Of a stretch of 64,000 bases of DNA, positions 15,190 to 29,200 are shown piece after piece. The DNA lies in contig JAFTPT010000031.1 in NCBI GenBank assembly GCA_017463155.1, positions 1-64,000 of the forward strand, in the 5' to 3' direction. Position 1 is the stretch's first letter. Every line of letters starts with the position of its first letter. Below the pieces are notes generated by a model. It was given only the letters and a program-made list of their open reading frames with translations, made no database searches and was not told the origin of the DNA. The DNA comes from Blautia sp. (GTDB lineage Bacteria > Bacillota > Clostridia > Lachnospirales > Lachnospiraceae). The position numbers and the translations under genes are program-made.

Positions 15190-15232
15190 CGCACAGTCTT
15201 GTCGGTAATCGACAAATGACAGGGTAACAGGA

Positions 15233-15286
15233 GGCCGGAAATTCTCCGATTTATCGCAGAAAAACCGGCCTTCTTCCTATTATTAT
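15233..15286 (+). terminator. Possible terminator after the endolysin
   Basis: AGGCCGG near 15234 pairs with CCGGCCT near 15270, followed by a TTCTTCCTATTATT tract. The loop is about 30 bases, longer than usual. It would end the late transcript before the recombinase genes. Confidence 0.4.
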
Positions 15287-15391
15287 AAGTTGCTATTCCC
15301 GGCACCTAACGGTAATATGCTACTACCCCGGAAGGGGTGCAACAACCGCAGTGATCACCTGCGGAATCACGACGGAAAGGAGAGAACATAC

Positions 15392-17116
15392 ATGGCAGAA
15401 GTCAAAGTAGTGGAAGCCCGGGATATGATCAACCGGGGTTTTCGGATGAGGCCGGGGACATTGGATGCCTACAGGAATGCAAACACGGCAAAGCCAGAGA
15501 AGGACAATACCCGCCATCAACCAGCAAAAAGGGCTGTGCAGGTAAAGCCGGTCACCATTGCTGCAGCCCCCAAACTGGTCAATAAGCCAAAGGTCGCTGC
15601 TTACTGCCGGGTGTCAACACTTCTGGATTCTCAGGAGACTTCCATTGAGTCTCAGCGGGAGCATTACGAGCAGGAAATCCGCTCGAATGAAGAATGGGAA
15701 CTGGCGGGGATTTACCTCGAAACCGGAGTGAGCGGCACCAAGGCAGAAATCAGGCCCGAGCTGCAGAGGATGATCGCAGACTGTAAGGCCGGGAAGATCG
15801 ACCTGATCCTGACCAAGAGCATCAGCCGGTTTGCCCGGAATACGTCCGATTGTCTGGAGATGGTACGAACGCTGACAGCTCTTGGTGTGAACATCCGGTT
15901 TGAAAAGGAGGAGATCGACACCGGGACGATGGAGTCGGAGTTCATGCTCAGCATCCTCGCCTGCCTTGCAGAAGATGAGAGCCACAGCATATCCGGCAAC
16001 ATGAAGTGGGCTATTCGGAAGCGTTTTGAAGCAGGAACGTACAAACAGGTCATCGCACCTTACGGATATGAGTATCGGGATGGCAAGCTGGTGATCGAAC
16101 CGGAAGCGGCAGCAGTTGTTCGGCGGATCTTTGGGATGGTGCTTTCCGGTAACGGGATGACTACCATTGCAAAGACACTGAATGGGGAAGGGATTCCGAG
16201 CCCAAATGGGAAACGCTGGGCACAGCCTTCCCTGCGCTCGCTCATTAAGAATCCTGCTTACATTGGCGACATGCTTTACCAGAAAACGTTCAAAGACGAT
16301 CATTTCATGCAGCGAGTGAACAAAGGCGAACTTGACCAGTTCTACGATGCCGGGCATCATGAGCCGATTATCAGCAAGGAAGATTTCGACAATGCGCAGG
16401 CGGCGGTGGAGCAGCGGGGCAAAGAAGTCGGATACCAGGAGGGTGTGAACAATAACCGGGGAAACAACCGGTATTGCTTTACCGGCATCCTGATCTGCAA
16501 GGCCTGCGGGTGCGTGATGCATCGGCAGCCTTCTGTAAGAGCAAACATCCGCTGGATCTGCCACAGGCATGCCAGCCATCCGGATCTTTGCCGGATGAAG
16601 CCACAATCAGACGAGGATCTGAAGTGTGCCTTCCTTAACTGCCTGAATAAGCTGGCGTGGGCGCAGGAGAGCAAGGGCGCTTCAAACCGTGTGCTGGATG
16701 TCTATGAAACCATGCTCGGCAAAACGGAAGCGGAAAAGAGCGCGGATCGCCTTCAGGAGATCGAAGAGCTTCTGGAAGAAAATCGCCGGGAGAGCCGGAA
16801 ACTTACGGCCATCATCATGCGGGATCATTTCCTGCCGGAGCACAGGGAGAAGAAAGCCTTCCTGACCAAACAGGAGAAAGAACTTATGACCGAGAAAAAC
16901 CGTATCCTGATTTCCGGTGCACCAAGCGGGACGCTCCAGCAGCTCAAAAGCTTCGTGGCGGGCTGGAGGATCACAGACGATCCCGGGGCTTTTCCGGAAG
17001 AGACTTTTACAGAGTTTGTCGAAAGCTGCACAGTAAACAGCCAGAAGATGGTGACCTTTCATTTTCGCTGCGGCCTTGAGCTGACAGAGAGCCTTTACAG
17101 AACGGAGGTAGAGTGA
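15392..17116 (+). CDS. Large serine recombinase A
   Basis: A 574-residue large serine recombinase. After a 65-residue leader comes the resolvase catalytic domain (AYCRVST with nucleophile Ser75; KSISRFARN), the recombinase DNA-binding domain (about 220-340, GYEYRDGKLVIEPEAAAVVRRIF), a zinc-ribbon domain (about 370-410, GILICKACGCVM and later CH-type cysteines) and a C-terminal coiled coil. These enzymes integrate and excise phages and mobile elements without needing long homologous arms. Upstream in-frame codons reach back to 15290, but AAAGGAGAG at 15376-15384 fits the ATG at 15392. The stop overlaps the next start by one base (TGATG). Lying just after the lysis genes, it is the likely integrase of this prophage. 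Confidence 0.93.
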   Translation: MAEVKVVEARDMINRGFRMRPGTLDAYRNANTAKPEKDNTRHQPAKRAVQVKPVTIAAAPKLVNKPKVAAYCRVSTLLDSQETSIESQREHYEQEIRSNEEWELAGIYLETGVSGTKAEIRPELQRMIADCKAGKIDLILTKSISRFARNTSDCLEMVRTLTALGVNIRFEKEEIDTGTMESEFMLSILACLAEDESHSISGNMKWAIRKRFEAGTYKQVIAPYGYEYRDGKLVIEPEAAAVVRRIFGMVLSGNGMTTIAKTLNGEGIPSPNGKRWAQPSLRSLIKNPAYIGDMLYQKTFKDDHFMQRVNKGELDQFYDAGHHEPIISKEDFDNAQAAVEQRGKEVGYQEGVNNNRGNNRYCFTGILICKACGCVMHRQPSVRANIRWICHRHASHPDLCRMKPQSDEDLKCAFLNCLNKLAWAQESKGASNRVLDVYETMLGKTEAEKSADRLQEIEELLEENRRESRKLTAIIMRDHFLPEHREKKAFLTKQEKELMTEKNRILISGAPSGTLQQLKSFVAGWRITDDPGAFPEETFTEFVESCTVNSQKMVTFHFRCGLELTESLYRTEVE

Positions 17117-17562
17117 TGCCGAGCAAGATTCCTTTTGGCTATGAGATCATCGGCGGAAAGGCCTATGTAAATGCACAGGAAGCAGCGCAGCTGAAGACTT
17201 ATTTTCGCAAATACCTGGAGGGTTTGTCCATGAGCGCAGCAGCGCAGGAGGCGAGGCTTCCATTTTCCTCCACGACATATCCGCATCTGTTTAAGCGGAA
17301 GGAATACCTCGGAACGGATTACTACCCGGCACTCATCACCGAAGAGTACCAGCGACAGCTGATTGATGAATGGGAGCGCCGCAAAGAGGAAGCTCCGAGG
17401 TGGTCGAAGAAACAGCCCAGAAAGGGCGTGAAGATCTACACCGATTTCAGGCTTGTCCGGGCGAGATCCTACGAGCCGGAAGATCCGGTAGACTGTGCGG
17501 CGGCACTTTATCAGCGCATCAGACCTAAATATAAAACTGACCAGGCTCCGACCAGAGAATAA
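17116..17562 (+). CDS. Small recombinase-domain protein without a catalytic domain
   Basis: A 148-residue protein (IPFGYEIIGGKAYVNAQEAAQLKTYF...) that matches only the DNA-binding 'recombinase' part of large serine recombinases. The PFGY start, the EAA...YLEG helix, the spacer and a LFKRKEYLGTDYYPALI segment line up with the corresponding stretch of its neighbours. There is no resolvase domain, catalytic Ser or zinc ribbon. It is translationally coupled to recombinase A (TGATG) with GGAGG upstream, and recombinase B follows by 38 bp. A role as accessory or directionality factor is inference; a relic of a third recombinase is the alternative. Confidence 0.8.
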   Translation: MPSKIPFGYEIIGGKAYVNAQEAAQLKTYFRKYLEGLSMSAAAQEARLPFSSTTYPHLFKRKEYLGTDYYPALITEEYQRQLIDEWERRKEEAPRWSKKQPRKGVKIYTDFRLVRARSYEPEDPVDCAAALYQRIRPKYKTDQAPTRE

Positions 17563-17600
17563 ACTGGCGGAGTCTTTTCATTCAAAACAGGAGGTACATT

Positions 17601-19295
17601 ATGGCAGTACAGGTAATCAAAGCAACAAAGCAGACGCAGGGCCTTGCCCCGTCCGTGTTACGAAACAGCACAAAAATGAAGGTGGCGGCATATTGCCGAG
17701 TCTCCACGGACAGCGATGAGCAGGAGACTTCCTACGAAGCACAGTGCAGGCATTACACCGATTTCATTTCCGCCAATCCGGAATGGGAGATGGCAGGCAT
17801 CTACGCGGATGAAGGAATCAGCGGAACATCGACCAGAAAGCGCGAACAGTTCAATAAAATGATTGCAGACTGCGAAGCCGGGCTGATCGACATGGTGATC
17901 ACGAAGTCCATCAGCCGGTGGGCCAGAAACACCATTGATTCCCTGCAGAACATCCGGAAGCTAAAAGACCTCGGTATTCCTGTACTCTTCGAGAAGGAGA
18001 ATATCAACACGATGGATGCGAAGGGAGAGGTGCTCATTACAATCATGAGCTCCATTGCCCAGCAGGAATCGGAGAGCATCAGCAAAAACGTGAGGATCGG
18101 CATCCAGTACGGGTTCCAGCAGGGGAAGGGCAGGCTGAACACCACTCAGTTCCTCGGGTTGGAAAAAGGGGAAGACGGGAGGATGCTTGTGATCATCCCG
18201 GAAGAGGCGGCGCTGGTGCGGCGGATTTACAGGGAGTACCTTGAGGGCTACAGCCCGGGAATGATTGCAGGAAGGCTTACGGCGGATGAAATCCTGACGC
18301 CTGCCGGGAAGAAGACCTGGTATCAGTCCACGGTCGTGAGCATCTTGGAGAATGAAAAATACTGTGGCGACTTGCTGATGCAGAAGTACTTCGTGGTGGA
18401 TTTCCTGACACATAAGATCATTAAAAACACAGGCCAGCTGCCGCAGTACTATGTGGAGGATGCGCATGAGCCGATTATCCCGAAACCAGTCTTCTTTCAA
18501 GTGCAGGGAGAGATGCAGCGCCGGAGCCTTCTTCGGAGCGATCCTACCAAGCTGCGGTTTGGTAGTACAATGGCGCTTTCCGGCAGACTCGTCTGCGGGC
18601 GCTGCGGACGGGTGCTGAAGCGCTACACCAATCCGAATCCACAGCTGATTGACTGGCGCTGCCGGAAACGCTCGTACAATAAACGGAGCATCACAAGGGA
18701 AGTGGAGCCGCTTTGCCCCTGCCGGAACGTACCGGAGCGGGAAGCGAAGATGGCGATCATTACAGCCTTTAACCAGCTGCCCGCACAGCGCGATGAGCTG
18801 ATCCGGATGCAAGGCGCGGTGTGGAACGGAACCATCGGACGGATCGATGCTGAACTGAACAAACTGGAAGAGCAGCAGGAGAGGATTACCGACCGGCTGG
18901 ACAGCCTTCCAGAGGAGGAAGCAGATCAGGCAGCTTTCCTGAAGGAGGAGTTAAACCGGATGGGAATTGAGCACACCAGCCTTCTTCTCGACAGGGCCGA
19001 TGCTGCAAACAAGGAAGTGCAGATCAGGCTTCTTCTGGAGCTGGTCGACGCCATGAAGGAGCAGCGGGAAGACGAAGCGGAAGAGTACGATTCCCCTGCC
19101 TGCTACGATTACGATGAGTTTTTCCGTCGGACGCGCTACGTTTTGGACGAGGGGATCATTGGTGAGGACGGAAAGGTGATGAGCTTTTCAAACGACATGG
19201 TCATCCGGTACCTGGACAACGTGGTCATTCAGGACGATGCCTACGAGGTAAATTTCAAATGCGGCCTGACCGTCCGAGTCGCCATTCACGAATAA
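17601..19295 (+). CDS. Large serine recombinase B
   Basis: A 564-residue large serine recombinase: resolvase catalytic domain with AYCRVST (nucleophile Ser35) and TKSISRWARN, recombinase domain at about 190-300 (EEAALVRRIYREYLEGYSPGMIAGRL), zinc ribbon at about 335-380 (LVCGRCGRVLKRY and CPCRNV), and a coiled-coil tail. Its start has a perfect AGGAGGT at 17589-17595. It is related to, but clearly diverged from, recombinase A, so the pair is not a recent duplication. Paired large serine recombinases acting together are known from other elements (for example ccrA/ccrB); whether these two cooperate is inference. Confidence 0.93.
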   Translation: MAVQVIKATKQTQGLAPSVLRNSTKMKVAAYCRVSTDSDEQETSYEAQCRHYTDFISANPEWEMAGIYADEGISGTSTRKREQFNKMIADCEAGLIDMVITKSISRWARNTIDSLQNIRKLKDLGIPVLFEKENINTMDAKGEVLITIMSSIAQQESESISKNVRIGIQYGFQQGKGRLNTTQFLGLEKGEDGRMLVIIPEEAALVRRIYREYLEGYSPGMIAGRLTADEILTPAGKKTWYQSTVVSILENEKYCGDLLMQKYFVVDFLTHKIIKNTGQLPQYYVEDAHEPIIPKPVFFQVQGEMQRRSLLRSDPTKLRFGSTMALSGRLVCGRCGRVLKRYTNPNPQLIDWRCRKRSYNKRSITREVEPLCPCRNVPEREAKMAIITAFNQLPAQRDELIRMQGAVWNGTIGRIDAELNKLEEQQERITDRLDSLPEEEADQAAFLKEELNRMGIEHTSLLLDRADAANKEVQIRLLLELVDAMKEQREDEAEEYDSPACYDYDEFFRRTRYVLDEGIIGEDGKVMSFSNDMVIRYLDNVVIQDDAYEVNFKCGLTVRVAIHE

Positions 19296-19307
19296 AACAA
19301 CACCGCT

Positions 19308-19355
19308 GGCCGGGATCTGGTTCCTTCGGGGATCAGGTTCCGGCCTCTTTTTGTT
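19308..19355 (+). terminator. Strong intrinsic terminator after the recombinase operon
   Basis: GGCCGGGATCTG at 19308-19319 pairs, with two G-U wobbles, with CAGGTTCCGGCC at 19334-19345, followed by TCTTTTTGTTT. It closes the three-gene recombinase operon and may mark the right edge of the prophage transcription units. Confidence 0.85.
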
Positions 19356-19436
19356 TGTCTCCGGAATTATCTTGCTAATTCAGAACTTTACGTTTATAGT
19401 GCAAAGCAAAAAGATCGGGAAGGAGCGTGGCGGATT

Positions 19437-19751
19437 ATGACCGCTTTAGAATATGTACGAGCGGAGCTACGAAAGGAATACGGATCAAAAGCAGCGATCA
19501 TCGAGACCTGGCTTGAAAACCGGTTGGCAAAAATGATGGATCAACATGAGCTGACGGAAGAGGAGAGGCAGAGTGCTTTTCAGGTGCTTCTCAACGAAAT
19601 GCTCTATCCCTTCATAGCCTGCTTCGGTGCAATGAAGGATGCGGAGATCCCGCTTGCAGAGGTGAACGAGTTCTGCAGGAGGATTTGGGATCAGATGCCG
19701 GAAGAAATGAAGCAGGAGATCGTACGCAGGGACACAGATATAATTAAATAA
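19437..19751 (+). CDS. Hypothetical protein of 104 residues
   Basis: A soluble, helix-rich, acidic protein (MTALEYVRAELRKEYGSKAAIIETW...). No catalytic motif, signal peptide or membrane segment is seen. A GGAAGGAG lies 11 bp upstream of the ATG. It stands alone between two terminator-like structures, so it is probably a separate transcription unit. Its link to the prophage or to the pilin island is unclear. Confidence 0.65.
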   Translation: MTALEYVRAELRKEYGSKAAIIETWLENRLAKMMDQHELTEEERQSAFQVLLNEMLYPFIACFGAMKDAEIPLAEVNEFCRRIWDQMPEEMKQEIVRRDTDIIK

Positions 19752-19761
19752 GGAAGAATCA

Positions 19762-19806
19762 TACAAGCACCGATGCGATGAGATACTCATAACTTTGGTG
19801 CTTGTA
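19762..19806 (+). repeat. Two-tier inverted repeat between hypothetical gene and pilin
   Basis: A perfect 10-bp outer stem (TACAAGCACC / GGTGCTTGTA) encloses a second perfect 5-bp stem (ATGAG-ATA-CTCAT). There is no T tract afterwards, so it is not a standard terminator. It may be a regulatory or recombination structure. Confidence 0.6.
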
Positions 19807-19960
19807 CCCGTCTATCACATTTCTCATAACGCATACAATCACTAAAGTGAACAGGTCGTGTTAACGTCTGACTGCGCAAAGGTAAAATCTAAGAAATTGG
19901 TAGATAAGCCAGATTTCAGCTAAAAACAAGCCAAATATTCGTGCTGATTATGCCCGGAAT

Positions 19961-21664
19961 GTGCACGGTTTTCCAAGTGAGGGCAAAAGAAAGCATCGGT
20001 ACGTGTTGTCAAAAATGATGGCGTTGGTCATTGCTATGGTGATGACTGTTGCAATGGTACTGCCGGCAATGGCTGAAGGTAGCGTGGCAGATGGTGCTTC
20101 TAAGACAATCAAAGTTGATGGCTTGGCCGCAGGTGATACTGTAAAATATGTTCAGGTGATTGAGTGGGATCAGACTGCTGGGTGGAAATGGGCAAGTGGC
20201 TTTACTGATCTTTCAAGCCAAATGCTTTCTGAAGTTGTTGGAACATCAACAGTAGCAGGGAAAATCACAGATGCAACAGCAACAGCAATTGCTGCAAAAG
20301 CTACATCTATGACGGACGGTGGTTCTGTTGCTGCAGGAACAACATCTTGGACAAAAGACAACCTTGCTCCTGGACTTTACATGGTTCAGGCTGTTGCAAC
20401 AACTGCAGAAGTTATTTATAACCCTGTATTTGTAGCTGTTCAGGCTGATGGAACAGGCACGGTTGTTACACTTCCGCTTAACTATGCTGATAATGGCACG
20501 GCTAAGAAGTCTGATGTGACTGTTGATAAGAAAGCTAAGAGTGCTGGAGATGCCGAGTGGCAGGATGCAACAACTGAAGATGTTGGAGATATCATTGACT
20601 ATAAGGTTGAGACAACTGTTCCTGCTTATCTTGAAAGCTATACTGATCCAATCTTTAACGTAACTGATGATCTTAGCGACGGTCTTACTTTTGCAGTTAA
20701 AGAAGGCTCAGGAGAAGCTGCATTAACTGATATCACTGTTAAGGTTGGTGAGACTGCTCTTACTCTTGATACAGACTATAAGATTACCACAAAGACTACT
20801 ACCAAATGGGTTATTGAGTTCCAGAAATCTTATCTTCAGAGTAGAACTGCAGCTACTGTAGTGACAATCGAATATAAAGCGAAGATTACTGATGATGCTA
20901 AGAGCGTTAACCCAGAGACTAATAAAGTAAAGATTGAATATTCACGTAACCCCAACGATACTAGCGATCATGGCACAAAGGAGGATAAGACTACTCATTA
21001 CACCTTCGATATCGACGCTAAACTTCAGGGTGATGACAACTATACAACTTCTGAAATTATCAAAGTTGGAAAGAATGCCGATGGTACAGACATTACAGAA
21101 ACCAAGACCTATAGTAACAAGACTACACATCATCCTGTTGATGGCGCTGAATTTACTCTTTACAAAGCAGATGGTACTACCAAATATACAAACAGTACTT
21201 ATCCTGATGGAGTTGTAATCAATTCCGCTAATGGAGGTCTTTTGGAGATCAAAGGTCTTGACGAAGGTATCTATGTACTGAAAGAGACAAAAGCCGCTAC
21301 TGGATATATGCTGATGACTGATTATCTTGAGTTTAAGATTTCCGCCACCTATAAAGACGTTCCGGCCACTGCCACCTGCAATGCATATAAGGAACTTGAT
21401 ACTTATAAGGTTGAAGTATGGCATGTTGCTGCTGATGGGACTAAAACACAGGGTAATACTTCCACATATACTCTTAATCAGGGAACAATCACAAAGACAA
21501 ACGAGGTTGCTGGCGATCAGAGTAATGAACTGATTAATACCAAGGGCCAGTCTCTTCCCAGCACTGGTGGTATGGGTACCACGATCTTCTACATCATCGG
21601 TGCAATCCTTGTTATTGGTGCCGGCATCCTGCTGGTGACTCGTCGTCGCATGAACTCGAACTAA
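19961..21664 (+). CDS. LPXTG pilin with isopeptide (D2) and SpaA-like domains
   Basis: A 567-residue sortase-anchored fimbrial backbone protein. A signal peptide (KMMALVIAMVMTVAMVLPAMAEG) is followed by an N-terminal pilin domain (about 45-190), a fimbrial D2-type isopeptide domain (about 190-345, DVGDIIDYKVETTVPAYLE), a SpaA/Cna_B-like domain (about 395-480, E-box LKETKAATGY) and LPSTGG plus a membrane helix and RRR tail at 532-567. The first possible start is a GTG at 19961 with no good ribosome site; other codons (GTG near 20003, ATG at 20015) are no better. The gene is AT-rich with many GTT/ACT/GCT codons, unlike its neighbours, which suggests transfer. No sortase gene is in the window. 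Its 3' end is repeated at 22448-22571. Confidence 0.88.
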   Translation: MHGFPSEGKRKHRYVLSKMMALVIAMVMTVAMVLPAMAEGSVADGASKTIKVDGLAAGDTVKYVQVIEWDQTAGWKWASGFTDLSSQMLSEVVGTSTVAGKITDATATAIAAKATSMTDGGSVAAGTTSWTKDNLAPGLYMVQAVATTAEVIYNPVFVAVQADGTGTVVTLPLNYADNGTAKKSDVTVDKKAKSAGDAEWQDATTEDVGDIIDYKVETTVPAYLESYTDPIFNVTDDLSDGLTFAVKEGSGEAALTDITVKVGETALTLDTDYKITTKTTTKWVIEFQKSYLQSRTAATVVTIEYKAKITDDAKSVNPETNKVKIEYSRNPNDTSDHGTKEDKTTHYTFDIDAKLQGDDNYTTSEIIKVGKNADGTDITETKTYSNKTTHHPVDGAEFTLYKADGTTKYTNSTYPDGVVINSANGGLLEIKGLDEGIYVLKETKAATGYMLMTDYLEFKISATYKDVPATATCNAYKELDTYKVEVWHVAADGTKTQGNTSTYTLNQGTITKTNEVAGDQSNELINTKGQSLPSTGGMGTTIFYIIGAILVIGAGILLVTRRRMNSN

Positions 21665-21823
21665 GAGCAAACATCTTAGGGTGTATGGGAGATAAGATCT
21701 CCACGAACAAAGCTCACAACATTAGCAAGACAAAATAACAAATCATACGAGGGTCAGGCTAAAACGGTCTGGCCTTCGCTATGTCATAGTTATTTTTACA
21801 AGAGGCTGACCGCTGTCTTTTTC

Positions 21824-21852
21824 TTGACAGATTTGAACATAACCTTTAAACT
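21824..21852 (+). promoter_or_regulatory. Degenerate sigma-70 promoter opposing the small gene (copy A)
   Basis: TTGACA, 17-bp spacer, TAAACT. It is the counterpart of the better promoter at 22730-22758 and points into the 3' end of the minus-strand small gene. The weaker -10 suggests this copy is less active. Confidence 0.55.
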
Positions 21853-21930
21853 TACAAATAGAAAGAGGGACACAACGATAAGCGGTTGGCCCCTGTTTTG
21901 ACTAGAATATTAAGGTTTTTACCTCAACAT

Positions 21931-21966
21931 CCGTCACTTGGCAGAGTGGCGGTTGTTGCTTTTCTT
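21931..21966 (+). terminator. Plus-strand terminator inside the small gene (copy A)
   Basis: CCGTCACT / AGTGGCGG stem (one T-G pair) with a 6-base loop, followed by TTGTTGCTTTTC. It would end a short antisense RNA started at the promoter at 21824-21852. The same structure is kept in copy B. Confidence 0.55.
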
Positions 21967-22023
21967 CTTAATGGTCAATGTGAAGGTATAACCGAACACA
22001 TGCCAGGTCAGAGTAATAGGCAT
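21934..22023 (-). CDS. 29-residue small protein, candidate type I toxin (copy A)
   Basis: A minus-strand gene below the usual size cut-off: MPITLTWHVFGYTFTLTI, then KKK and a polar tail ending NNRHSAK. The start is preceded by AAAGGAGGTGAGAGCTT, a near-ideal ribosome site. The second copy at 22836-22925 keeps start, stop, ribosome site and all residues but one (Leu/Phe at position 16), which argues for selection on the protein. A 16-residue apolar segment plus basic tail is the usual plan of small membrane toxins. A plus-strand promoter and terminator lie opposite its 3' half. Function is inferred from layout; no named family is claimed. Confidence 0.65.
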   Translation of the reverse strand: MPITLTWHVFGYTFTLTIKKKSNNRHSAK

Positions 22024-22025
22024 AA

Positions 22026-22292
22026 GCTCTCACCTCCTTTCGGAGAGAAGGTCGTGAAGAAGCCTGGGAAGAGGCACGCAGAGAGGGAAAAAGAAAGCTG
22101 ATATCCGTTGTATGCAAAAAGCTGATCAAAGGGAAAGCTCCGCAGGAGATAGTCGAAGATCTGGAAGAGGATTTTTCCGTGATTCAGATAATCTGTGATG
22201 CGGCATATGCATTTGCGCCGGAGTATGCGGCAGATGATATATTGGAGGCAATCGAGGAAGGGCAAGGAGGAGAGATTCTTTGGAATTCATAA
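22026..22292 (+). pseudogene. C-terminal fragment of an Rpn/PD-(D/E)XK nuclease-like protein (copy A)
   Basis: An open frame without a start codon encodes REEAWEEARREGKRK followed by LISVVCKKLIKGKAPQEI and a Leu/Glu-rich helical end. Charged linkers followed by a short helical domain of this kind are typical of the C-termini of Rpn-family (putative transposase-nuclease) proteins. The catalytic part is absent. The fragment is repeated at 22981-23190, so it was already truncated before the duplication. Family placement is by resemblance only. Confidence 0.5.
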
Positions 22293-22440
22293 ACGGCGAA
22301 TTTATTATGCTGGGGTGTGGGGCGGAAGATGCGTTGCACACTGTCTCTGACTGCACTGCTTTTATCCACAAGGTTGGCTTTATACCGCTTTTTTCGAACT
22401 CGATTCCCGGCTTCTCCATCGAGGAGCATACGATGGCTTC
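22280..22440 (+). pseudogene. Truncated 5' copy of the AlkZ-related gene
   Basis: Starts at the same TTG as the full gene at 23734 and encodes nearly the same first 54 residues (EFINGEFIMLGCGAEDALHT...GFSIEEHTMASQ). It then runs out of frame into the repeated pilin 3' end. AGGAGGAGAG upstream is intact, so a short peptide could still be made. It marks the duplication-deletion junction. Confidence 0.85.
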
Positions 22441-22444
22441 ACAA

Positions 22445-22571
22445 CAACAAGGGTCAGGAACTACCTTCCACTGGTGGCATGGGTACCACAATCTTCTACA
22501 TCATCGGTGCAATCCTTGTTATTGGCGCCGGCATCCTGCTGGTGACTCGTCGCCGCATGAACTCGAACTAA
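22445..22571 (+). pseudogene. Second copy of the pilin 3' end (LPXTG sorting signal only)
   Basis: Encodes NNKGQ then ELPSTGGMGTT, the membrane helix and RRRMNSN, as in the pilin at 21536-21664, with scattered, mostly synonymous changes. The frame opens without a start codon of its own. It is a remnant of a deleted second pilin gene, or a stored 3' cassette that could recombine with the expressed pilin. Confidence 0.85.
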
Positions 22572-22729
22572 GATCAAACATCTTAGGGCGTACGGGAGAT
22601 AAGATCTCTACGGACAAAGCTCACATCATGAGCAGTATTTAATGACAAACCATACGAAGGTCAGGCCATAACGGTCTGGCCTTCGCTATGTCTAAGTTGT
22701 TTAACAAGAGGCTGGCCGCTGTGTTTTTC

Positions 22730-22758
22730 TTGACAGATTTGAACATAACCTTTATACT
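22730..22758 (+). promoter_or_regulatory. Near-consensus sigma-70 promoter for an antisense RNA (copy B)
   Basis: TTGACA at 22730-22735, exactly 17 bp, TATACT at 22753-22758. A transcript from about 22765 would run against the 29-residue minus-strand gene and stop at the hairpin at 22833-22854. No protein-coding gene starts in sense within this short distance, which is why an antisense RNA is proposed. Confidence 0.7.
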
Positions 22759-22764
22759 TAAAAA

Positions 22765-22866
22765 AGAAAGAGGGACACAACGATAAGCGGTTGGCCCCGG
22801 TTTCGAAGATTTGGGTTTAATTATTTAAACAGCCGTCACTTTGCCGAGTGGCGGTTGTTGCTTTTC
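22765..22866 (+). ncRNA. Candidate antisense (antitoxin-like) RNA, about 100 nt
   Basis: Bounded by the promoter at 22730-22758 and by the hairpin plus T-rich tract at 22833-22866. It is complementary to the 3' untranslated region and last codons of the minus-strand small gene, the arrangement of known type I antitoxins such as RatA opposite txpA. Inferred from signals only. Confidence 0.45.
22833..22866 (+). terminator. Plus-strand terminator inside the small gene (copy B)
   Basis: CCGTCACT at 22833-22840 pairs with AGTGGCGG at 22847-22854, followed by TTGTTGCTTTTC. It lies about 70 nt after the antisense promoter. It is conserved with copy A although it also has to encode the peptide C-terminus on the other strand. 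Confidence 0.6.
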
Positions 22867-22925
22867 TTCTTTATGGTAAACGTGAAGGTATAACCAAACA
22901 CGTGCCATGTCAGAGTAATAGGCAT
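22836..22925 (-). CDS. 29-residue small protein, candidate type I toxin (copy B)
   Basis: A minus-strand gene encoding MPITLTWHVFGYTFTFTI, KKK and NNRHSAK at the end. The ribosome site is AAAGGGGGTGAGAGCTT. The apolar part alternates polar and apolar residues (T-L-T-W-H-V-F, T-F-T-F-T-I), which could form a beta strand as well as a membrane helix. It has the full set of type I features: opposing near-consensus promoter, antisense terminator, and complementary ends around the gene. I found no convincing own promoter on the minus strand. Alternatives: a leader peptide, or the cargo of a miniature transposable element. Confidence 0.68.
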   Translation of the reverse strand: MPITLTWHVFGYTFTFTIKKKSNNRHSAK

Positions 22926-22980
22926 AAGCTCTCACCCCCTTTCGGAGATAAGTAGGCCAACCGCTTTACGTTGTGTCCCT

Positions 22981-23190
22981 TGCGAAGAATCACGCATAGA
23001 GGGACAAAGAAAGCTGATATCCGTTGTTTGCAAAAAGTTGATCAAAGGAAAAGACCCGCAGGAGATAGCAGAAGATCTCGAAGAGGATCTTTCCGTGATT
23101 CAGAGAATCTGTGATGCGGCATCTGCGTTTGCACCTGAGTATCCTGTGGAGGATATTTTGGAGGCAGTCGAGGATGAGAGTATCAGATAG
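22981..23190 (+). pseudogene. C-terminal fragment of an Rpn/PD-(D/E)XK nuclease-like protein (copy B)
   Basis: A startless frame encoding LISVVCKKLIKGKDPQEI, an acidic helix and AFAPEYPVEDILEAVEDE before TAG at 23188. It is the partner of 22026-22292. The linker upstream differs from copy A because the right arm of the inverted repeat lies here. The same caveat on family placement applies. Confidence 0.5.
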
Positions 23191-23218
23191 AGCTGGAGAC
23201 GGCGGAGGAAATGGTCAG

Positions 23219-23659
23219 ATGAAGATTCGACTCATGCAGATTGATGACTACGACAAGGTTTACAACCTGTGGTTAAACTGCTCCGGTATGGGCTTGAACA
23301 ACCTGGACGATTCCCGGGAAGGTATAGAAAGATACCTGAACCGGAATCCGGAGACTTGTTTTGTCGCAGAGGATGGTAATAATATCGTGGGTGTCATTAT
23401 GGCTGGTCACGATGGCAGGCGTGGCACTATTCACCATACAGCGGTTCATCCGGAATACCGACATTGTGGGATCGGAAAAGCCCTGGTAGAAAAAGTTCTG
23501 GGAGCTTTGAAACGGCAGAGTATCCACAAAGTGAATCTGGTTGTGTTTGAACGGAATGAAGACGGAAATGCTTTCTGGGAGAGAATGTGCTTCACAGATC
23601 GACCGGATCTGGTTTATAGGAACAGAGCCCTGTCAGAACTGGAAAGAATTGACACGTGA
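23219..23659 (+). CDS. GNAT-family N-acetyltransferase
   Basis: A 146-residue GNAT enzyme that moves an acetyl group from acetyl-CoA to an amine. The acetyl-CoA binding motif A is clear (HTAVHPEYRHCGIGKALVEKVL, with the Q/RxxGxG/A-type PEYRHCGIGKAL), followed by VNLVVFERNEDGNAFWERMCF. GGAGGAA at 23203-23209 fits the ATG at 23219; the open frame reaches back to 23111 but overlaps the nuclease fragment. The gene is present only in the second copy of the duplicated unit, so it was inserted after duplication or lost from copy A. The substrate is unknown. Confidence 0.87.
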   Translation: MKIRLMQIDDYDKVYNLWLNCSGMGLNNLDDSREGIERYLNRNPETCFVAEDGNNIVGVIMAGHDGRRGTIHHTAVHPEYRHCGIGKALVEKVLGALKRQSIHKVNLVVFERNEDGNAFWERMCFTDRPDLVYRNRALSELERIDT

Positions 23660-23733
23660 GATAGAGGGGCACAGCTTGCTAAAGTCATGGCGGTGGCAAG
23701 AGTGCTGCGGAGAAGAGCAAAGGGAGTGATTAT

Positions 23734-24882
23734 TTGGAATTCATAAACGGCGAATTCATTATGCTGGGGTGTGGGGCGGAAGATGCTTTGCACACTGTCT
23801 CTGACTGCGCAGCTTTTATCCACAAGGTTGGCTTTATCCCCCTTTTTTCGAACTCGATTCCCGGCTTTTCCATCGAGGAGCATACGATGGCTTCTCAGTG
23901 GTGGACAGAGGATCCGGAGACAGATCCGTGGGTTTGGAGACAGTTGTTATCCTCGGACCCTGTCATCGCTTACGGAAAGTTCTTCGGGCGAAATGCGGGG
24001 TTCATTTCGAAGGAATTCTTCCCGACGTTTGCAAACTACCGCCGCAACGGCTACGATTTCGATGCTCTTTTTGAAGATGAGCTGGCGAGCTACCGTGAAA
24101 AGAAGATTATGGATGTGTTCGAACTGGACGATGAGAGTGTTGGCCGGCAGATCATGTCTTCGGAGGTAAAGCAGCTCGCAGGCTTTTCAAAGGACGGCGG
24201 TGAGAAGAATTTTGAAGGTGTACTGACGGATCTTCAGATGCAGACCTATCTGATCATGGGTGATTTTTGTCAGAAGAAGAACAAGAAAGGCGTGCCTTAC
24301 GGCTGGTACATTGCGGTCATGGAGACGCCGGAAACGAAATGGGGACGAGAGTTTGTTGCTTCCGCGTATGCGGAAGATCCGGCTGAGAGCTGGCAGAAGA
24401 TAATCACACACATGAAGAAGTTCTTTCCGGAAGCATCGGACGACCAGCTGCAAAAGCTGCTGGGAATCAAATATCCAGGCGTGGAAAGAAAACCCGAGAA
24501 AAAGGAAAAGAAGCTTCGTCTTCCAAAAGAGTGGATCATACCGGCCAATCCAAAGTACTATGATATTGAAAGCGCCTTTGAGAGCGCCGAAGAAATCGAC
24601 TGGAAACAGGGGGCAGGTATTCGAAAAGGCGATACTGTATTCGTGTACGTTGCGGCTCCGGTTTCTGCAATCCTGTACAAGTGTGAGGTGACCGAGACGG
24701 ACATTCCGTTCGAGTATCATAATGGAAATGTGCAGATGAAGGCTCTGATGAAGATAAAACGTGAGAAACAGTATCAGAAAGACCGATTCACGTTTGACAT
24801 ATTGAAGAGCGAATACGGAATCTTTGCGGTCAGAGGACCGAGAGGGATTCCGGAAAAACTGAGTGAGGATCTGAAGAAGTAG
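23734..24882 (+). CDS. AlkZ-related protein with C-terminal EVE/PUA-like domain
   Basis: A 382-residue protein. The N-terminal part (about 1-210) has the pattern of AlkZ-related proteins (VGFIPLFSNSIPGFSIEE, WWTEDPETDPWVWR, YGKFFGRNAGFISKEFFPTFANYRR), a group named after the winged-helix DNA glycosylase AlkZ/YcaQ but without proven activity. The C-terminal part (about 265-380) begins IIPANPKYYDIESAF and resembles EVE/PUA-like domains that bind modified bases. A DNA-repair or modified-base role is inference. The start is TTG with AGGGAGTGAT upstream, shared with the truncated copy at 22280. A terminator follows the stop. Confidence 0.78.
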   Translation: MEFINGEFIMLGCGAEDALHTVSDCAAFIHKVGFIPLFSNSIPGFSIEEHTMASQWWTEDPETDPWVWRQLLSSDPVIAYGKFFGRNAGFISKEFFPTFANYRRNGYDFDALFEDELASYREKKIMDVFELDDESVGRQIMSSEVKQLAGFSKDGGEKNFEGVLTDLQMQTYLIMGDFCQKKNKKGVPYGWYIAVMETPETKWGREFVASAYAEDPAESWQKIITHMKKFFPEASDDQLQKLLGIKYPGVERKPEKKEKKLRLPKEWIIPANPKYYDIESAFESAEEIDWKQGAGIRKGDTVFVYVAAPVSAILYKCEVTETDIPFEYHNGNVQMKALMKIKREKQYQKDRFTFDILKSEYGIFAVRGPRGIPEKLSEDLKK

Positions 24883-24883
24883 A

Positions 24884-24913
24884 GGCTGGTCTCATGGAGA
24901 CCGGCTTCTTACA
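24884..24913 (+). terminator. Intrinsic terminator after the AlkZ-related gene
   Basis: GGCTGGTCTC - ATG - GAGACCGGCT stem (one G-U pair) followed by TCTTACAATTT. It starts two bases after the stop codon. Confidence 0.75.
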
Positions 24914-24916
24914 ATT

Positions 24917-25036
24917 TCAGGGGATAGGACAACTCGAAAAGTGGACGAATATGGCAAAACTTAAACAAGGGACAGCACCTCCTTTTGACGCAAAAAAATA
25001 ATGATCTGCAATACGCTCATCCCAAAGTATTCTCAT
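24917..25036 (-). pseudogene. Truncated toxin gene downstream of the RelB/DinJ antitoxin
   Basis: Four bases after the antitoxin stop there is an ATG opening a 39-codon frame that starts MRILWDERIADHYFF and then turns into unrelated sequence before a TGA. The first residues fit the beginning of a RelE/YafQ/YoeB-type toxin, and the 4-bp spacing is typical of such operons. The rest of the toxin is missing, so it should be inactive. Confidence 0.5.
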
Positions 25037-25040
25037 AGGC

Positions 25041-25301
25041 TCAATCCTCAATCAGTGCGTGTTCCGCAAGGGTAGCTCTTCCGGAATCAATCTCAGACAC
25101 CACTTTTTTTAGATAAGCACTGTTTATATCAGAATCAAACGGATCAGCAGATACCTCAAAAGGAATCCTCTTCTCATGCCGCATCTTTTTAGCAAAAATA
25201 GTAAACGCAGTGGACATGCTTATACCAAGATCACGGCATACATCTTCCATGCCTTTCTTATCGTCTTCATCCAAGTGGAAATTGACTAAAACCTCTGCCA
25301 T
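25041..25301 (-). CDS. RelB/DinJ family antitoxin
   Basis: An 86-residue antitoxin with the ribbon-helix-helix N-terminus of the RelB/DinJ family (VNFHLDEDDKKGMEDVCRDLGISMSTAFTIFAKKM) and a disordered, toxin-binding C-terminus starting at IPFEV. Such proteins bind their toxin and repress their own operon. AAGGAGGT lies 8 bp before the ATG. A 10-bp palindrome upstream (25348-25372) is a good candidate operator. The partner toxin is reduced to a short remnant, so this is an orphan antitoxin that may still neutralise related toxins or act only as a regulator. Confidence 0.88.
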   Translation of the reverse strand: MAEVLVNFHLDEDDKKGMEDVCRDLGISMSTAFTIFAKKMRHEKRIPFEVSADPFDSDINSAYLKKVVSEIDSGRATLAEHALIED

Positions 25302-25347
25302 TTCAAATACCTCCTTGTTTGGGTATAGGATAACACGCTTGAAAGCA

Positions 25348-25372
25348 TTTATAAAGCGCTCTGCTTTATAAA
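25348..25372. promoter_or_regulatory. Palindromic candidate operator of the antitoxin gene
   Basis: TTTATAAAGC - GCTCT - GCTTTATAAA, a perfect 10-bp inverted repeat 46 bp upstream of the antitoxin start. Position and symmetry fit autoregulation by the ribbon-helix-helix antitoxin. It could also be an intrinsic structure of the promoter. Confidence 0.5.
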
Positions 25373-25380
25373 ACCTAAAA

Positions 25381-25621
25381 AAAGTTTATGAACGAGAAAC
25401 ACGGCCATTTTGGCGGAGAACTGGAAAATCAACTAGTGGCGTGATGTGTTTTTGTTCGGAGAAAACCGAGTCGGATGCGACCGAATAAATTTGTACGAGC
25501 GGTAGTCAGAACGGAAACTGTTGCGGAGAATCCTTATATAAGAAGATATGCAGACTGTTCTTATTTACGGAGAGTATAACGGAGCTGATCAGATTAACGG
25601 GCACCAGAAGGGACAGGACTA
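25381..25621. other. Gene-free AT-rich stretch
   Basis: No open frame with a ribosome site, RNA gene or clear repeat is seen on either strand. The frame with ENPYIRRYADCSY near 25530-25570 has several stops and may be earlier parts of the ATPase remnant that follows. Confidence 0.4.
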
Positions 25622-25738
25622 AACTGTTACCGGTACAGGTTCATTTCCCGTTCCGGCTTTGACGACATGGAACCGGAGGAAGACCTGGAACTGATCAGCC
25701 TGGAACAGCTTTATGAATGGGCTCCGACACATACCTAA
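25622..25738 (+). pseudogene. C-terminal remnant of an AAA ATPase-like gene
   Basis: A startless frame encodes NCYRYRFISRSGFDDMEP, then EEDLELISLEQLYEWAPTHT and TAA. The pattern FISRSGF...LISLEQLYEW resembles the C-terminal end of the DUF234/archaeal-type ATPases found widely in Clostridia. Upstream sequence is degraded. Resemblance only; short length limits certainty. Confidence 0.4.
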
Positions 25739-25873
25739 AAGTACTATACTATTGAAAACGCCTCCAATCTACTGGGAATTGTGTGGCGAGTTGATATGAA
25801 TACTATCAAAGCATAAGAATGTACTAAAAAAAATACATATGTGATGCTGCATAATGCTGGCTTTGTTGGACAT

Positions 25874-25902
25874 TTGTTGGACACGGTGTGTTATTGTATA
25901 AA
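25874..25902 (+). promoter_or_regulatory. Candidate promoter for the riboswitch-adhesin transcript
   Basis: TTGTTG at 25874-25879, 17-bp spacer, TATAAA at 25897-25902. It would start RNA about 90 bases before the c-di-GMP aptamer. Confidence 0.5.
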
Positions 25903-25997
25903 CAGGAGTACAAAACGATGGACTAGCGTTTTTATATTAGTTAAGAATAGAAATAAGTAAGGGAATAGGATAACAACTTCGGAAACAATTGAACAAA

Positions 25998-26096
25998 TGT
26001 AAATTAAAAGGCAAAGCAGATGAAAGTCTGTGACGCAAAACTATAGGGTCTGAACTGTAATCGGTATTACGGAAGACAGCCAGCTGCATTTTACGA
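25998..26096 (+). ncRNA. c-di-GMP-I (GEMM-I) riboswitch aptamer
   Basis: The conserved GEMM-I core is readable: GGCAAA at about 26010, a short P2 stem CAGA-tGAAAg-TCTG with the GAAA tetraloop, then GACGCAAA, GGGTCT, a variable P3 hairpin (GTAAT/ATTAC), and GACAGCC before the closing strand. The outer P1 stem pairs GTAAAT with ATTTTAC. The aptamer is followed at 26108 by an intrinsic terminator and then by the giant adhesin gene, so c-di-GMP should set read-through. In Clostridioides difficile, class I and II c-di-GMP riboswitches control pili and surface adhesins in the same way. Whether this one turns on or off cannot be read with certainty. Confidence 0.88.
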
Positions 26097-26107
26097 TAAG
26101 ACTAAGT

Positions 26108-26146
26108 GGACGTCACGGAATAACTGTATTTGTGATGTCCTTTTTG
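26108..26146 (+). terminator. Riboswitch expression platform terminator
   Basis: GGACGTCAC at 26108-26116 pairs with GTGATGTCC at 26132-26140 (one G-U), followed by TTTTTGAG. It lies 12 bases after the aptamer and 138 bases before the adhesin start, so it is placed to control adhesin transcription. Confidence 0.85.
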
Positions 26147-26283
26147 AGTTATCTAAACAAAAATCCGAAGCAGATGGACGAAAACGCCTTCAGGACAAGG
26201 AAACGGACAGTAAAGTGAGAGGAGCATTCATGCATGTGTATCAGACTGCAGAAGAAGCATGCGTGAGGAGAAGGAGGAGCGCT

Positions 26284-29200
26284 ATGAGAAAGAAACGATT
26301 CATGGAGAGACTGATCAGCATGATGCTGAGTGCATCAATGGTGTTCGGCTCAATCACACCATTGTCAGCTTCGGCTGTCTATGTGGATGAACCGGCAGAA
26401 TATGTCGAGGCATCGGACCAGGTGTATGAGATGCCAGGCGAAGATGAAGCGGATGCATCTTCAGAAGCCATCCTGGACGACGGTAGTGAATATGAGGATG
26501 ATTTCGAAGAAGCTGTCTGGGAAGACTCCTCCGGGTATGAGACGGAAGAGAAAGCAGAAGGATCGAAAAACGAATTCGAAGAATTCGAAGATAACGAACA
26601 AAACGAAGAAAACGAAGTTCTTTCGGATTCCGAAGTACTTCCTGCGGACGAAGAAGATAATTCGGAAGCCACGAAGGATTTCTACGAATTTGAAGACCGG
26701 AATATCTATGTAACCGCCACGCTCAACCGTCCGGATGCAGTCCCGGATGACGCTGAGTTCAAGGTAACCCGCGTGACGCCGAATGTCCGCGGCTACAACT
26801 ACGATGCCTATATGGAGGCCCTGAACCAGGAAACTGCAGATCCTGCGGAAGAGCCGTACTATACGGATGAGAACACCCTTCTCTATGACATTGCGTTTAT
26901 GGTTGATGAGTTGGATGAGGAGGGAAACCCGACCGGCGCCAGAGTCGAATATCATCCGGACAACGATGATGTCGAGATCGCCTTCTCCTTTAAGAAGGCA
27001 CAGCTATCCGAACAGATGGGTGCGGATAGTTCGGATTCGGTGAATGTGTTCCATTTACCTCTTGAGGACGACGTGATCGAGAATTTCGATTCCACCAGAG
27101 ACGCGACTGACATATCGGCGGATGACATTGCTGTCGATTATGTTGATACCCGGATCGAAGATCTGGGAGCTGATACCGGATATGATGAGACGGCCGTATT
27201 CACCACCGACGGCCTGTCTGTGTTTGCGTTCACCGTTGACTTCCATTATGAAGGGACCGACTACAGCATCCCCGGTGAAAGCCAGATCCTGCTGAGCGAG
27301 CTGATCACGCAGCTGCGGATCATGAACGGCGGTGTGCTTCTGGATGTGGCGGATGTGGAGAGTGTCGAGTTCACTGATGAGCATCTGGTGACCGTCGAGG
27401 AGGTCAGCGGACTGATCAGCTACAACAACGAAGAAGGCGTCGATGTCGAAGATAAGGATTTCCTGCTGAGCAGCAAGGAAGCATTCACAAGTGAAGAGAA
27501 GCTGACGATCCGGCTTATGAACGGTGAGGAAATCGAAGTCGGCGTGACGGATGCACAGGGTGATGTCATTGTTATGGACAATGACGGATATTTCACATAC
27601 GGCGGTCTGGAGTACGGAGAACGGATCGATGATTTTGACGGCATCGTGTGCTACGGATATGACGCGAACGGAGAATATCCTGCCGATATCACGATCCCGG
27701 CCAGCTTCAGCATAAAGTATGCTGACGATGATTATGTGTGGGAAGATAAGCCTGTCATCAGGGTCGCGGAAGAAGCATTTGCAAATGATACGCATGTAGT
27801 CAATGTGACCTTTGAGGGAGATATTGAACTGCCGTCGAATTATTACGGCGTTTTTGATTCATGCAATAGTCTTAAAAAAGTTACTTTTAATGGTTCAAAA
27901 GTCAACCTGGGTTTGTGTACTTTCTGGAACTGTTCTTCCCTGGAGGAAGTGTGGGCCGGGAATGCGACGGAACTGACGATTGGGCAGGAGGCCTTATCGT
28001 ACTGCGGAAATCTGAAAAAGTTTACAGCCCACAGCGAAGCGGAAACGACGATACATCAGAATGCTTTCAATGGATCCGGCATCTCTGCGGAACAGATCAC
28101 CTATGTTGTTGTTCCTGAGACAGAAGAATATGACGATGGAGTCTACACGTACAAGCTCAACAAAGAGAATAATACGGCCAAGATCACAGGCCTTAGTGAC
28201 AGCTACAGCGGCGATTACAATCTGAATATTCCGAATACAGTGACTGCCGGTGAGGGCGATGCTGCAAAAATCTACACTGTAGACGCAATCGATGCCTATG
28301 CGTTCAGCTATGATGAAAAAGGCTGGGATATCCAGAATGTTACGTTGGATAGTCCTACGGGTATTTCCATCGGTTTGCAGGCCTTTATCAGATGTGCCAA
28401 TATGACCGGCGATCTGAAGGGCGTTACAGCCGTCGGTGAAAATGCGTTCTGGGGCACAAAGCTCAACAGCATCGAGCTCAACATCGCAAAGATCGAGGAT
28501 ATCGGGAACTGGGCTTTTGGAGACCAGGGAACCGAGGCCAGTGTGACCGTAAATGCCAAAGATCTGACCATTACGCACGGACACTTGAGCAAATTGCAGG
28601 GTGTTACGGATCTGACAATCAACGCGGACAGAATAGCCTTTAACTGGTGGGTACTCCAAGGCGATTATTATGGAGAATCAAACCTCCGCTCCATTACGAT
28701 CAACTGCGAATCTGATATAGACCTTCCTTTCCAGGTGTTTGGGGACCATAAGAATGCAGGCTTCAAGTCGATCGTCATTGATGCGCATGTTGGAGAAGTG
28801 TCCGACCAGGCTTTCGAATGCCTTGGAGATGGAAAAACTGCCGTGTACGTAGAGTTCAAGCAGGGAGTGGATAAGATCAATGAGAATGCTTTCAGCAACT
28901 TCAGCGGAGGCAAAGGCTCTGTGATCCGCATCCACAACAACATGGCCGATACGGACTTTACGGAGGGACAGTCCTTCCCGAAGGATCCGAACCTCAGCAT
29001 TGTTTTTGATGATGAAACGCTCAGCTACGAGCAGATTCATGACGATGCTCTGACCTACGAGGAGGAAAACGGAAGTCTCGTCGTTACAGGCCGCTACGTT
29101 GAGGACGACTATACGGCTCCGGCCACGACCTTTACGGTGCCGGAGACACTGACATGGAAGGATAAGACCTATCCTGTCATCGCTATCAAGGAAGGCGCCT

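Follow-up and report, generated by a model that had tools for sequence, protein, structure and literature searches.

The window (the whole stretch of 64,000 nt from the Blautia sp. contig JAFTPT010000031.1) contains, on its minus strand, two genes for a 29-residue peptide, each opposed by a plus-strand promoter, and these genes, we believe, probably belong to a new family of modules, each about 250 bp long, that resemble type I toxin-antitoxin pairs. That the module is an antisense-controlled peptide gene is well supported by sequence comparison, and a toxin is the likeliest role for the peptide. The original prediction had proposed the layout of a toxin mRNA and its antisense RNA for these genes, and this stands: convergent promoters, covarying hairpins, a 5'-3' stem and selection on the peptide, compared over 93 loci, all point to it.

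The peptide with a conserved opposing promoter was sought among relatives in Clostridia, as had been suggested, and one layout recurs across the 93 loci (99 loci with the tail motif and a start codon were extracted and thinned to 93, with altered tails and near-identical copies excluded): sense promoter, 5' repeat (R), ribosome-site hairpin and peptide, followed by a hairpin coding for ...NRHSAK-stop, a matching 3' repeat (R' on the antisense strand) and the convergent antisense promoter. Because it recurs in scores of loci with different neighbours, the layout is beyond chance.

In the mechanism we propose, the sense promoter would give RNA I, the mRNA for a cationic, beta-prone peptide of 25-31 residues, and the small hairpin would mask the ribosome site while RNA I is being made. 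Once RNA I has passed the internal hairpin and entered the 3' repeat, the 5' and 3' repeats would pair, and the resulting long stem would lock RNA I. The convergent promoter would give RNA II, about 100 nt long and antisense to roughly the final ten codons, the hairpin and the 3' repeat. RNA II would terminate at the hairpin, where the Lys-Ser-Asn codons would serve as template for its U-tract. Pairing of RNA II would block or destroy RNA I, and once RNA II is exhausted, translation of processed RNA I would yield a peptide that harms the cell. We infer the transcripts and their ends, the pairing and effect of RNA II, the processing and the toxicity; the rest of the account is comparative.

Promoters, stems and peptide of the module

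Promoters of the sigma-70 type were scored out of 12 consensus positions, with the expectation taken from dinucleotide shuffles. The antisense promoter matches at least 11 positions in 86 of the 93 loci (0.2 expected) and at least 10 in 90 (1.6 expected), and its -10 box ends 61-81 nt beyond the stop codon, apart from one locus at 46 nt. The sense promoter reaches at least 10/12 in 65/93 loci (1.4 expected), so the two promoters converge as in Fst/par.

Between the 5' and 3' repeats of one locus, pairing averages -42.2 kcal/mol, compared with -29.6 between loci: none of 10,000 permutations over the 93 loci was as strong, and the own pair is stronger than pairs with the five nearest relatives in 87 of the 93, while two control segments show no preference for the own pair (590 and 456 of 2000). 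The differences left over between the repeats favour G-U in the sense RNA, with 107 giving G-U and 25 giving an A-C mismatch (ratio 4.28), counted after removal of two columns beside a shared CGG (170 and 26 before removal); random partners give 57 G-U and 30 A-C, and the ratio lies between 1.43 and 2.71 in 30 shuffles. Minimum-energy folds include at least 15 pairs of the closing stem in 86/93 loci, as against approximately 53/93 for swapped loci. On this comparison the repeats co-evolve as a stem predicted to close the sense RNA, in the manner of the 5'-3' stem of aapA/IsoA, which speaks for read-through of the internal hairpin by the sense RNA. Since the 3' repeat lies beyond that hairpin and co-evolves with R, we did not accept that every locus ends its RNA I there.

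Repeats of this kind could instead be the terminal inverted repeats of a small mobile unit resembling a miniature inverted-repeat transposable element (MITE), with R and R' serving to spread it. They do bracket the gene, copies are multiple or tandem (four in locus L072), and there is a slight excess of shared direct words outside the unit (5.50 vs. 5.14 in 66 loci, outside the -35 boxes; 4/500 permutations). We nevertheless consider a MITE-like origin very improbable: R and R' lie inside the unit, whose outer elements are the promoters, the promoter spacers of one locus resemble each other no more than those of different loci do (0.267 vs. 0.276, 50 loci), and a repeat acting at the DNA level does not predict the bias of leftover differences toward G-U on the sense strand.

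Within the antisense-controlled module, the predicted hairpins of both RNAs are well kept. In the antisense-RNA alignment (54 of 72 sequences, 18 having been left out by hand), 98.7% of the cells of the terminator hairpin and 78.8% of those of the 5' stem-loop are paired, and the folds hold 57 double-change cells compared with 22 in shuffles. For the ribosome-site hairpin, aligned over 60 hand-chosen loci with copy A of the window excluded, 88.7% of cells are paired, with 14 double-change cells against 6 in shuffles. A strict script finds a 4-bp ribosome-site hairpin in 71/99 loci, and the ribosome site is locally paired in 86/93 folds, comparable to the stem-loop of Fst. Considered as a bidirectional terminator, the internal hairpin (hairpin T) has, by eye, a good T-run on the antisense side and a poor one on the sense side.

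The peptide core varies mostly synonymously, with a dN/dS of 0.17 in frame (1179 equal-length pairs of 70-97% identity, which are not independent); the two remaining sense frames give 1.16 and 2.8 and the antisense frames 0.75, 0.33 and 2.3, of which the 0.33 frame shares the wobble position of the real one. Judged by these codon differences, the core of this small peptide gene is under purifying selection. The tail codons AAC CGC CAC, of which the search motif fixed the residues and not the codons, are invariant in 93/93 loci, so the constraint on the tail acts on nucleotides.

The peptides are 25-31 residues long with a mean net charge of +4.7, and hydrophobic and polar residues alternate in the core, giving a strand (beta) moment of 2.45 and a helix moment of 0.88. 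Membrane type I toxins have been described as alpha-helical and transmembrane (PMC8309996); here, composition and moments favour a strand. A bolder proposal, which we hold tentatively and with rather more doubt than confidence, is that this is a new class of type I toxin, spread among gut Clostridia and their phages, built on a cationic amphipathic beta-hairpin and not on a membrane helix, with Fst-like promoters and an aapA-like lock, in which the tail codons Lys-Ser-Asn-Asn-Arg-His would serve three purposes at once, as part of the peptide, as stem of the internal hairpin and as template of the U-tract of the antitoxin terminator.

The same cationic charge, amphipathicity as a strand and conserved tail would also suit an antisense-controlled small peptide that is no toxin to its maker, for example an exported antimicrobial, a signal or a regulatory peptide kept mostly silent, and some type I peptides, PepA1 and SprG1, do act on other cells (PMC6563280). 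This we regard as unlikely, as there is no secretion gene among 20 neighbouring proteins (signal peptides were not searched for) and as 6 of the 27 matches described below have lost the peptide and retained the antisense promoter, which is expected if the free peptide harms the cell that makes it.

Loss and retention of parts among relatives

An RNA model built on RNA II, which therefore favours matches that keep RNA II, was searched against 299 genomes of the host's family and gave 39 matches in 25 genomes. The 27 matches of at least 52 bits were tallied, this limit having been chosen after the score gap beneath it was seen; the 12 weaker matches (38-48 bits) lie outside the tally. Loss of the peptide frame in relatives that keep promoter and hairpin, which the original prediction had named as evidence against itself, does occur, in 6 of the 27 (L155, L177, L179, L205, L208, and L210), all six with an antisense promoter of at least 11/12; start codon and frame are kept in the other 21, one of them with an altered tail end. 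Among the weaker matches, L061 retains the peptide and L166 has only the tail and a broken start. In rows with the tail motif the antisense promoter matches at least 10/12 in 26/27, the exception being the leading copy of a tandem pair in L049 (this tally leaves 23 loci that lack the motif unscored), and the 93 loci gathered by peptide patterns show equally strong antisense promoters. At one place (L157/L179, G083:C48:2822-3025), two tandem antisense-RNA genes lie behind one peptide; the second, without a peptide of its own, is a candidate orphan antitoxin.

That RNA II persists without the peptide in these six matches, together with the invariance of AAC CGC CAC at the level of DNA, would agree with the RNA being the functional part, as paired RNAs or as a structural repeat, and with the peptide frame being incidental or a leader. 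We think this improbable, as changes in the core are mostly synonymous in its own frame and not in the other sense frames, the ribosome-site hairpin and the start codon are kept, and start and frame are intact in most of the strong matches.

Several observations weigh against an antisense-controlled toxin gene as described here. The 93 loci were recruited by patterns in the peptide and its tail, and their copies share descent. The sense promoter scores below 10/12 in 28/93 loci, and within 150 nt upstream of either window copy none is recognisable, the best match being 7/12. A terminator beyond the antisense promoter is found at strict score in only 25/93 loci (0.4 expected), and in the remaining loci the internal hairpin may therefore be where RNA I stops; in L094, L096, L099, and L104 this distal terminator hairpin encloses the antisense -35 box. 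Covariation is modest: in the antisense RNA, pairs with double changes number 6 compared with 5.9 in shuffles, and further pair types 23 compared with 22.3, just 4 of the 13 terminator pairs show double changes, and in the ribosome-site hairpin all double changes fall at one pair. The best 13-residue hydropathy averages 1.2, which leaves no clear membrane helix. Finally, in L203 the peptide frame is kept while the antisense promoter matches only 8/12, and the usual 5' region is also lost.

The window copies and their surroundings

The two peptide genes of the window lie at 21934-22023 (copy A) and 22836-22925 (copy B, MPITLTWHVFGYTFTFTIKKKSNNRHSAK), both on the minus strand, and, as had been predicted, differ by a single residue, copy A having L where copy B has F. 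The predicted ribosome sites are likewise present, GGAGGTGA upstream of copy A and GGGGGTGA upstream of copy B, as are the plus-strand promoters opposite each gene, TTGACA-17-TAAACT at 21824-21852 (A) and TTGACA-17-TATACT at 22730-22758 (B). One of these antisense promoters scores 11 of 12 and the other 10, and each is followed by the expected hairpin with a T-rich tail, at 21931-21952 (A) and 22828-22859 (B) on the plus strand, both with covariation in relatives. The hairpin of copy B is the predicted terminator of the antisense RNA, and the strand opposite it encodes ...NRHSAK-stop. The predicted antisense RNAs would span 21861-21966 (A; 72.4 bits with RNA model R1) and 22766-22868 (B, RNA II; 78.4 bits) on the plus strand, their ends being estimates; R1 includes both window copies, so these scores are self-inclusive.

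The ribosome-site hairpin of copy B (22931-22952, minus strand), with a GAAA loop and nine predicted pairs, is given by the fold and by covariation in relatives and immediately precedes the start codon, and its 5' repeat R (22955-22980, minus strand) is, on the sense strand, the complement of 22771-22796, where R' forms the 5' part of the antisense RNA on the plus strand; the complement of R' is the 3' arm of the closing stem in the sense RNA. In copy A, a ribosome-site hairpin TCTCC-GAAA-GGAGG is recognised at 22033-22046 (minus strand) by eye and by the family pattern, and R' is present (21866-21891, plus strand) without a partner, R having been kept in copy B and lost from copy A. The duplex of copy B with its own repeat is predicted at -49.6 kcal/mol (rank 0 of 93) and that of copy A at -16.9 (rank 35 among the 93 loci).

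Around the two genes, the stretch 21700-23700 contains 4 promoter-like sites on both strands compared with 2.5 expected, and the sole one on the minus strand (9/12, at 22847-22820) falls within copy B, some 800 nt ahead of copy A. With no recognisable sense promoter nearby and copy A lacking its 5' repeat, the window copies may be toxin-silenced descendants that have kept their antisense promoters, unless they are read from elsewhere. A third, diverged copy in the source genome (module G000:C37:30193-30333, peptide 30259-30333) carries all elements of the module, with both promoters at 11/12; the RNA model finds the same three places in this genome and no other at E 0.1.

The locus had been described as duplicated, and there are indeed two real copies; they are, however, not independent, since both sit in one tandem duplication of about 907 nt (21536-22258 and 22443-23174), which also takes in the 3' end of an LPXTG pilin gene. 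Its blocks are 21536-21795 matching 22443-22702, 21794-21901 matching 22700-22806, 21919-22050 matching 22821-22952, and 22065-22258 matching 22981-23174. We reject the proposed drift of the flanks as a sign of selection: the flanking DNA, which was thought to have drifted more than the gene, has diverged like it, with the repeat blocks 87-93% identical and the peptide open reading frames (ORFs) identical at 82/90 nt. Of the eight differences between the ORFs, seven leave the residue unchanged (over 18.2 synonymous and 68.8 nonsynonymous sites), suggesting that the peptide still mattered once the region had been duplicated.

The flanks of the peptide genes include the end of the pilin gene (GramPos_pilinBB, SpaA) and, farther on, the start of an AlkZ-related gene. 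The pilin gene lies at 19961-21664, and duplication of its last part has produced an 84-aa frame at 22317-22571 (+) ending with a second sorting signal. Two copies of another gene end adjoin the peptide genes, at 22056-22259 and 22984-23175 (+), and are presumably the C-terminal end of an Rpn-type nuclease; no family matches these short frames, and relatives occur in the same genome at G000:C15:26499-26705, within a 347-aa open frame, and at G000:C15:15724-15921. Upstream are two large serine-recombinase-like frames (15290-17116 and 17601-19295, +, by eye), a hint of a mobile element adjoining the pilin and peptide region. Downstream, a c-di-GMP-I-GGC riboswitch-like match at 26001-26092 (+; 51.9 bits, below the gathering score of 59) directly precedes a 5428-aa open frame (26215-42501) in which, by eye, Cna-B-like repeats are abundant.

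Distribution and relation to known systems

A ten-row peptide profile, searched against 397 genomes of the host's family at E 0.01, has matches in 22, with at least two matched places in 8 of these. With the same profile, 102 relatives were obtained from a genome collection, of which 80 loci were retained, all titled as Clostridia groups: 22 Lachnospiraceae, 2 Blautia, 11 Ruminococcaceae, 11 Oscillospiraceae, 18 "Clostridia," 9 "Clostridiales," 2 Eubacteriales, 3 Bacillota, 1 Mogibacterium, and 1 Faecousia, with gut or rumen samples mentioned in many titles. A plasmid record of Vescimonas fastidiosa is a further relative, and on the viral side two phage-labelled faecal contigs match (one over 66% of the peptide), as do contigs of IMG/VR, one by profile and ten by a hairpin pattern that itself demands the tail; nine of these ten have a typical peptide upstream, the peptide of L185 being divergent by eye. 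Three IMG/VR contigs of different datasets (L184, L187, and L188) carry an identical version of the module in the compared stretch, and a single Lachnospiraceae contig (L072, 1550-2980) has four tandem modules approximately 435-453 nt apart. In an even sample of the class, the ten-row profile matches 8/391 genomes at E 0.01, of which six have no tail motif, and a 42-row profile matches 2/391 at 1e-4, the source genome and one member of its family; the distribution of the family is therefore patchy.

Pfam was applied to 20 neighbouring proteins of 12 loci, of which 12 matched (pilin, phosphoesterase, melibiase, amino acid kinase, peptidase M3, DUF1269, LytR, tRNA synthetase, biotin ligase, symporter, a weak sigma-70 region 4, and rubrerythrin) and 8 have no family, four of these being on viral contigs. 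No neighbour recurs among these proteins, and the unit therefore seems to travel alone.

It had been suggested that the peptide may represent an unrecognised family, and this agrees with our searches: no curated family matches it above cut-off, and neither the titles nor the starts of abstracts in the literature searched describe it, nor does the string NNRHSAK occur in the papers text-searched (supplements, for example that of PMC8040213, which might list the RNA, lie outside both searches). The nearest family is YrzI (PF09501; 16.8 bits vs. a Pfam cut-off of 23), whose likeness is limited to a weak match with the T-rich N-terminal stretch, seen in 9/42 members for PF09501 and in 6/42 for the NCBIfam model TIGR02413 (best E 0.003). 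YrzI belongs to a Rae1 target operon of B. subtilis. In the source genome, PF09501 finds one sub-threshold place, which is not the peptide. Weak single or double matches to SH3_retrovirus and FAM212 in Pfam were taken as chance. PHROGs, searched with ten members, gives a best E of only 0.033, the PDB sequences no match at E up to 1, and Rfam, over the peptide modules of the window (15000-27000) and of four relatives, nothing at gathering score. Shortness, by contrast, does not set the peptide apart as had been claimed, since the type I toxins Lpt and ZorO are described with 29 residues as well.

Of the known systems, Fst/par of pAD1 (Fst/Ldr family) has converging promoters, one terminator for both RNAs and a stem-loop over the ribosome site of its toxin (PMC7472228). 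The new family resembles it in its convergent promoters, a predicted antisense RNA, a terminator hairpin at the end of the peptide gene, a ribosome-site stem-loop, and a peptide of some 30 residues whose tail is charged. The repeats, however, are direct in Fst/par (DRa/DRb) and inverted here, and by eye the new peptide has none of the hallmarks of Fst: no hydrophobic helix, no Trp ahead of a charged tail and no PXXXG-like motif. Fst-like pairing between the 5' ends of RNA I and RNA II was also considered and rejected as weak (-22.0 vs. -21.2 between loci; 26/5000 permutations as low).

In aapA/IsoA of Helicobacter pylori, a 5'-3' stem locks the mRNA until its 3' end is trimmed (PMC6733600). 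Long-distance 5'-3' pairing and a short cis antisense RNA, both predicted here, ribosome-site hairpins and several copies per genome are common to both, a comparison made by layout and not by peptide; H. pylori is of another phylum, and the closing stem here forms upstream of the ribosome site instead of covering it. The txpA/RatA and bsrG/SR4 pairs of Bacillus subtilis (PMC4147584) share RNAs that overlap at their 3' ends, by about 75 and 120 nt, a ribosome site within a stem in bsrG, and a location on prophage-like elements. TxpA, compared by description, is longer, at 59 residues, and the Rfam model of BsrG gives only 17.3 bits in one relative, with a cut-off of 55. The type I modules of Clostridioides difficile (PMC6563280) are closer in host, being likewise of class Clostridia, and have convergent overlap, lysine-rich tails and prophage copies, but their toxins, again set apart by description, have 34-59 residues and a hydrophobic N-terminus, and no family common to them and the new peptide was seen. 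The family thus appears from its sequences to join the convergent promoters of Fst and the 5'-3' lock of aapA with another kind of peptide.

Type I peptides this small slip through routine annotation, and a review of such systems in Clostridia centres on C. difficile (PMC6563280). If our reading is true, gut commensals of the Lachnospiraceae and Oscillospiraceae would own native RNA-controlled toxin genes, the viral copies would hint at a role in maintenance or in conflict between phage and host, and the peptide would stand outside the membrane-helix picture of type I toxins. Its tail would then be a clean case of one stretch of nucleotides serving both a peptide and the terminator of its antisense RNA.

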